Assembly: GCA_026014745.1 (NCBI GenBank)
Contig: JAOZHS010000003.1
Location: forward strand, 414,137-478,136
Direction: 5' to 3'
DNA length: 64,000 nt
Origin: Candidatus Bathyarchaeota archaeon
GTDB lineage: Archaea; Thermoproteota; Bathyarchaeia; Bathyarchaeales; Bathycorpusculaceae
A model generated the notes under the pieces. That model did no database searches, was not told the origin of the DNA, and saw nothing but the letters and a program-made list of their open reading frames with translations. Both the position numbers and the translations under genes were made by a program. Every line of letters starts with the position of its first letter. The first letter of the stretch is position 1. Below, piece after piece: positions 40,255 to 40,596 of this stretch.

Positions 40255-40316
40255 GAGGGGTTAACCAAAAAAGGTAAACACCGAAAGCAAAAAAGATGCC
40301 TAATTTTGGGGGATTT

Positions 40317-40470
40317 TGGTCGGGAGAGCAGGATTTGAACCTGCGACAGCTCGGTATCTGTGGCCTAGACAGGCTAGAATGAAGCCCACCATGGGTAGAC
40401 CTCTACAGCTTCTCCATCCCCCAAGCAAGTTGAGGGACTCGAGAGCTCTGCCAGGCTGAGCTACCTCCCG
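40317..40470 (-). tRNA. tRNA-Tyr(GTA) with two introns
   Basis: On the minus strand: exon 1 40470-40440, intron 1 40439-40410 (30 nt), exon 2 40409-40403, intron 2 40402-40356 (47 nt), exon 3 40355-40321, then A73 and an encoded CCA (40319-40317). Spliced, it gives a perfect cloverleaf: acceptor CGGGAGG/TCTCCCG, D arm GCTC-AGCCTGGCA-GAGC, anticodon stem CTCGG/CCGAG with loop CTGTAGA, variable CTGTC and T arm GCAGG-TTCAAAT-CCTGC. C1-G72 and anticodon GTA identify archaeal tRNA-Tyr. Intron 2 is at the standard 37/38 site; intron 1 splits the anticodon stem at 30/31. Splice sites are set by the fit; those of intron 2 may shift one base. Confidence 0.93.
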
Positions 40471-40596
40471 AAGTGAAATCATAAAGACAATAGATGGGAA
40501 TTTATGTGTTTTGGAAAAACCAACCTGAACCGAAGCATACTAAACGTTTTAATCCCTTCATAAGAACCAAATAATCCAGTGTTATGAGGCGTCAGT

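Follow-up and report, generated by a model that had tools for sequence, protein, structure and literature searches.

A two-intron tRNA-Tyr gene from Candidatus Bathyarchaeota with an antisense of the D arm in its canonical intron

The tRNA-Tyr gene and its introns

The window, which is the whole 64-kb stretch of DNA analysed from the genome of a Candidatus Bathyarchaeota archaeon (2.7 Mb, three contigs), carries on its minus strand a tRNA-Tyr(GUA) gene of 154 nt that runs from 40470 to 40317 and is interrupted by two introns (Table 1). Its neighbour is a phosphofructokinase-like gene, by which the genome has its nearest relatives among Candidatus Bathyarchaeota. A TATA-like box lies approximately 30 nt upstream, and a like box is present upstream of the gene in relatives. 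When both introns are removed, ARAGORN calls a tRNA-Tyr(GTA) of 77 bases, CCA included; its stems contain one G-U pair and no mismatch, and it has the marks of an archaeal-type tRNA-Tyr (GUA anticodon, C1-G72 and A73). Read from the sequence, the 30/31 border is the only one that lets the anticodon stem close. The original prediction of two introns of 30 and 47 nt in a tRNA-Tyr with GTA anticodon, C1-G72, A73 and encoded CCA thus holds, since their removal leaves a perfect tRNA, and the sites 30/31 and 37/38 recur identically in relatives; only the predicted spliced length of 73 nt has to be corrected, to 74 nt without CCA (77 nt with it). The exons are contiguous and in order, which rules out a split or permuted tRNA. 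A tRNA-Tyr with two introns is, in itself, an ordinary multi-intron archaeal tRNA.

Table 1. Coordinates in the window of the tRNA-Tyr gene and of its structural elements
Feature	Position	Strand	Remark
tRNA-Tyr(GUA) gene with two introns and encoded CCA	40317..40470	-	C1 at 40470, A76 at 40317
TATA-like promoter element CATAAATT, preceded by CCAAAACA	40499..40506	-	read from sequence
Exon 1 (positions 1-30)	40440..40470	-	
Intron 1, 30 nt, at 30/31	40410..40439	-	
Exon 2 (positions 31-37, GCUGUAG)	40403..40409	-	anticodon GUA = 40406-40404
Intron 2, 47 nt, at 37/38	40356..40402	-	
Exon 3 (positions 38-76 with CCA)	40317..40355	-	
T6 run, possible terminator	40289..40294	-	read from sequence
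BHB-1 central helix, exon side, C25-U28 (CUCU)	40442..40445	-	
BHB-1 central helix, intron side (GGAG)	40412..40415	-	
Intron-1 hairpin, 9 bp (GUCCCUCAA/UUGGGGGAU)	40416..40438	-	
BHB-2 central helix, exon side, C32-U35 (CUGU)	40405..40408	-	
BHB-2 central helix, intron side (ACAG)	40358..40361	-	
Intron-2 hairpin (GAGGUCUACC/GGUGGGCUUC)	40381..40403	-	
D-arm antisense within intron 2 (AGCCUGUCUAGGC)	40363..40375	-	
Antisense partner, G15-U26 (D loop and 3' strand of the D stem)	40444..40456	-	

The unspliced gene is missed both by ARAGORN and by an Rfam gathering scan of the 64-kb window; with intron 1 left in, ARAGORN reports a false tRNA-Pro and a false tRNA-Arg, and without intron 1 the correct tRNA-Tyr. 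A search of the whole genome with the tRNA family RF00005 finds the unspliced gene with 38.4 bits among 47 places, and no other GUA anticodon is found among those of the 47 that ARAGORN names (a few are unnamed). Blastn of the whole gene against the genome returns the gene itself, a 28-nt match of the D arm to tRNA-Phe and otherwise chance-level matches. The second intact tRNA-Tyr gene that would have made this one a candidate pseudogene was therefore looked for by both routes and not found, and the locus is apparently the sole tRNA-Tyr gene of the genome. That it is a pseudogene, left unspliced while another tRNA-Tyr serves the cell, is hardly credible: standard finders miss it and decayed tRNA-Tyr copies do occur in two relatives, but no other tRNA-Tyr was found in this genome, perfect exons, both splicing motifs and the promoter-like box are kept, and the same gene is present throughout the order. 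The decayed copies are second tRNA-Tyr copies (L145, G016:C102:2050-2300, and L143, G053:C54:200-460), the former with remnants of intron 2.

Within the genus the same architecture is found with approximately 89–95% identity, and through most of the order the introns have diverged and sit at exactly identical sites; this recurrence excludes chance. In a DNA search of 60 relatives the gene was found in most, and members of the genus have it, with few exceptions, at full length. All 189 genomes of the class are hit by a covariance model built on the precursor, but many of these hits are other tRNAs, and intron counts therefore use only the parsed loci (n = 82, some fetched twice). Introns at 30/31 and 37/38 alone are present in 55 of these and the 37/38 intron alone in 14; the remaining loci have additional introns at 53/54 and/or 59/60. 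Four tRNA-Tyr genes, L134 (G044), L137 (G038), L141 (G060) and L240 (G056), have introns at all four sites. The published maximum for an archaeal tRNA is three (PMC8450103, PMC4033280), and no description of a four-intron archaeal tRNA was found in the literature accessible to us, with most subscription journals outside it. The range is thereby extended to four introns within one tRNA gene. The view that tRNAs with two introns are confined to some Thermoproteales and a few other groups is too narrow, as here they extend through most of one Bathyarchaeia order, and pairs of archaeal tRNA introns can thus be old and stable.

Other arrangements were also seen. The tRNA-Tyr genes L207 (G166) and L238 (G082) have extra introns in the D arm in addition to that at 37/38, L238 having a further one near the variable loop, and in the 37/38 intron of the tRNA-Tyr gene L235 (G093) the 3' splice site is preceded by a duplicated exon-like piece, CCGGACAGTGCAGAAACCGG. 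A tRNA-Phe(GAA) gene (L147, G033:C1:13145-13350) has a 30-nt intron at 30/31, and it is possible that the 30/31 intron has spread between tRNA-Tyr and tRNA-Phe.

The two bulge-helix-bulge motifs and the splicing endonuclease

It had been thought that no textbook bulge-helix-bulge (BHB) could be drawn at 30/31. This is not so. In the motif drawn from the sequence (BHB-1), C25-U28 form the central helix H with GGAG, the two 3-nt bulges are CG^A and AA^G, and the flanking helices have 9 bp on the intron side and only 2 bp on the exon side (A23-U33/G24-C32). H is kept with four out of four pairs in all 59 distinct exon/intron combinations of relatives, and one relative has GAAG in place of GGAG. 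The intron-1 helix covaries, with changes on both sides at each of the eight pairs tested and with 92% paired as compared to 71% in shuffles. The textbook register is also supported by the tRNA-Phe L147, where GGCG in the intron fits CGCU in the exon of that gene; ViennaRNA favours a shifted register with smaller bulges.

In the motif at 37/38 (BHB-2) the central helix H is CUGU/ACAG, the bulges are AG^A and AU^A, and the anticodon stem provides the exon helix. Its H is complete (4/4) in 69 of 71 distinct relatives, and in some families an insertion precedes H'. The intron-side helix in the window can be either the textbook GGUCUA/UAGGCC or a 10-bp hairpin, the two sharing nucleotides. As drawn, BHB-1 and BHB-2 are mutually exclusive, because both use C32-U33 and because BHB-2 needs the stem 27-31, which intron 1 breaks. 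Cases are known in which one intron must leave before the next BHB can form (PMC8450103).

As regards the enzyme, a broad-specificity splicing endonuclease had been expected, and the genome indeed carries two PF01974 paralogs; in a search of 41 genomes, nearly all had two copies. L001 (186 aa) is most similar to the catalytic subunits from Sulfolobus and Aeropyrum and, when aligned to 2cv8 and 3p1z_B, keeps the Tyr, His and Lys together with the crenarchaeal-type Lys-containing loop of an alpha subunit. L002, aligned to M. jannaschii EndA, keeps Tyr and Lys and lacks the His. The type of the subunits, a point that had been left to be checked, is thus one catalytic-type and one His-less paralog, a pattern as in the heteromeric broad-specificity enzymes, and the two may form such a complex. 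Non-canonical introns are within the substrate range of such heteromeric endonucleases (PMC12397907, PMC4033280), and the cell's ordinary tRNA-splicing enzyme should be able to remove both introns.

Predicted pairing of intron 2 with the D arm

Intron 2 of the relatives contains AGC-CUACCAAGC, which is complementary to G15-U26 (GCUUGGUAG-A-GCU) with A23 bulged; the antisense in the window, CUGUCUAGGC, pairs with one nucleotide bulged. In an alignment of 25 sequences 96.5% of the cells of the 8-bp core pair, and two pairs change on both sides. Covariation was then followed with an anchor that is blind to the D loop, in 69 distinct sequences; the window's genus, owing to the 1-nt bulge in its antisense, lies outside this set. 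Nine out of nine pairs are formed in 63 of the 69 (in one with a 1-nt bulge) and eight out of nine in the other six. Position 17 is U-A in 43 sequences, C-G in 24 and U-G in 2, and position 20 is U-A in 52, C-G in 5, A-U in 3 and U-G in 9, with a mismatch in neither; these tallies are counts of sequences and not of independent events. The change between U17/A and C17/G has nevertheless arisen more than once, because the families f1, f4, f7 and f9 each hold both forms. In the families f21-f23 the D arm differs (GCUCAAUGG) and the intron matches it with CCAUUGAGC or a near version. Thus, the antisense in intron 2 covaries with the D loop (U-A, C-G and A-U) across Bathyarchaeia and other Thermoproteota. 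In tRNA-Tyr with a 9-nt D loop from outside the class, 8 or 9 pairs are formed in 19 of 20 distinct sequences, shuffled D loops often reaching 8, and in tRNA-Tyr with a short D loop (GUGGUAG) from outside the class there is no antisense signal. Thermoproteota tRNA-Tyr genes with short D loops (L261-L277, L280 and L294-L297) have another type of 37/38 intron, without D-arm antisense, consisting of a long hairpin with a recurring AUGAG-like motif; a relationship of these introns to k-turn or guide RNAs is possible. No description of a D-arm antisense in a tRNA-Tyr intron was found in the accessible literature, most subscription journals being outside it.

When the duplex energy of D arm and intron is compared with that of dinucleotide-shuffled introns, the window's duplex is no better than the shuffled ones (p = 0.375), the median for the class is p = 0.03, which is moderate, and the effect is weak in the phylum. 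After swapping of introns between D-arm classes the cognate intron had the best mean energy in three of the four classes, in one of them by only 0.1 kcal/mol. Because the shuffle test is weak, we rely on the anchored position-by-position covariation. It is this covariation that has to be set against the reading that the gene is an ordinary two-intron tRNA whose introns are cut as their BHBs form, the complementarity to the D arm being a by-product without structural role. The non-significant energy in the window alone would fit such a reading, as would the local hairpin GCCU/AGGC (GCCU-GUCU-AGGC) that is possible in the window's genus and the fact that strict BHBs account for splicing without any D-arm helix. 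Three observations argue against it: D loop and intron have changed in a compensatory manner, without a single mismatch at position 17 or 20; in f21-f23, where the D arm is completely different, the intron strand differs so as to match it; and in the GCUUGGUAG class the local hairpin has no more than 2 bp. We regard this reading as improbable.

The minimum-energy fold of the precursor includes the pairing of the D arm with the intron in 53 of 60 relatives. By constrained folding, the energy of the anticodon-stem fold minus that of the antisense fold is on average 13.7 kcal/mol in the 60 relatives with both introns and 3.0 kcal/mol without intron 1; in the window the values are 12.9 kcal/mol and approximately 0. 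The bias is unchanged when shuffled letters take the place of intron 1 and is therefore due to the interruption of the anticodon stem; the sequence of intron 1 itself was dropped as the driver of the antisense fold. Where intron 1 is absent from the genome, the antisense fold still has a slight energy advantage in 15 of 16 cases, the odd one being L167, where the script picked another site. Since the pairing persists in lineages without intron 1, serving this intron cannot be its original role, and the D-arm pairing has an older one.

These energies suggest that the precursor would first be in the fold with the D arm open and would reach the 37/38 BHB once intron 1 is gone. The exons, the BHBs, their mutual exclusion and the covariation are read from the sequences, and from these we infer in which order the introns are cut and what the D-arm pairing is for. 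In a first step, the antisense in intron 2 would pair with the D loop, by which the D stem is opened and nucleotides 23-28 are set free; these and intron 1 could then form the 30/31 BHB, and the heteromeric endonuclease would excise intron 1. In a second step, with intron 1 gone, the anticodon stem would be restored and the D arm would re-form; the 37/38 BHB (CUGU/ACAG) would become competitive and be cut, and a ligase would join the exons. That this is a functional tRNA-Tyr gene with two protein-spliced BHB introns, in which intron 1 is cut before intron 2 and the antisense holds the D arm open, has in our estimation a probability of about three in four.

Alternatively, the antisense could have nothing to do with the order of splicing and act in the modification of the precursor or in its quality control, such as by timing a modification in the D loop or at position 35, or by shielding the unspliced RNA from the synthetase. 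This is in line with the presence of the pairing in genes without the 30/31 intron. The pairing partner is, however, the D arm rather than the anticodon arm, and intron 2 has no box C/D or H/ACA pattern and no Rfam match, so that we consider this role rather unlikely. A guide function of intron 2 was looked for and is unsupported: no boxes were seen by eye, there was no Rfam gathering match in the window, and the ACA of intron 2 is not kept in L202-L237. Returning to a role of the pairing in folding, a wider view can be put forward tentatively, as one that has clearly less than even odds: the canonical tRNA-Tyr intron in many Thermoproteota may be a conserved RNA element whose antisense opens the D arm as a folding checkpoint, by which unspliced RNA is kept out of the tRNA shape and, in genes with added introns, the order of intron removal is set. 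If the pairing does act in this way, archaeal tRNA introns would have a function apart from their excision. As a long-range pairing between intron and exon in a tRNA precursor it is directly testable.

Comparison with known systems

Multi-intron tRNAs are known from Thermoproteales, for example the tRNA-Glu and tRNA-Pro from Pyrobaculum with three introns each, and the gene described here resembles them in having BHB introns at canonical and non-canonical sites (PMC8450103, PMC4390854, PMC4033280). The removal of the introns one after another by a broad-specificity endonuclease, here predicted, would be a further likeness. It differs from them in that the 30/31 and 37/38 pair is stable across most of a Bathyarchaeia order rather than scattered, in that relatives have four introns where the published maximum is three, and in that the canonical intron holds an antisense of the D arm. 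The same break of the anticodon stem at 30/31 is found in the split tRNA-Lys(CUU) from Nanoarchaeum and Staphylothermus (PMC4090602), where it separates two genes, whereas here it is a contiguous cis intron. The permuted tRNA-Tyr from Thermofilum pendens, with a break at 59/60 and an intron at 37/38 (PMC3218864), has the latter in common with the gene described here, which is not permuted, and the 59/60 break is an intron site in some relatives. In yeast and plants, the intron of the eukaryotic pre-tRNA-Tyr is needed for the formation of pseudouridine 35 (PMC9602550). The likeness lies in the intron of a tRNA-Tyr acting before it is spliced out, which is putative here; a modification role is, however, unsupported in our case, and the intron pairs with the D arm. 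What is new beyond an ordinary multi-intron tRNA is the D-arm antisense in intron 2 and the relatives with four introns.
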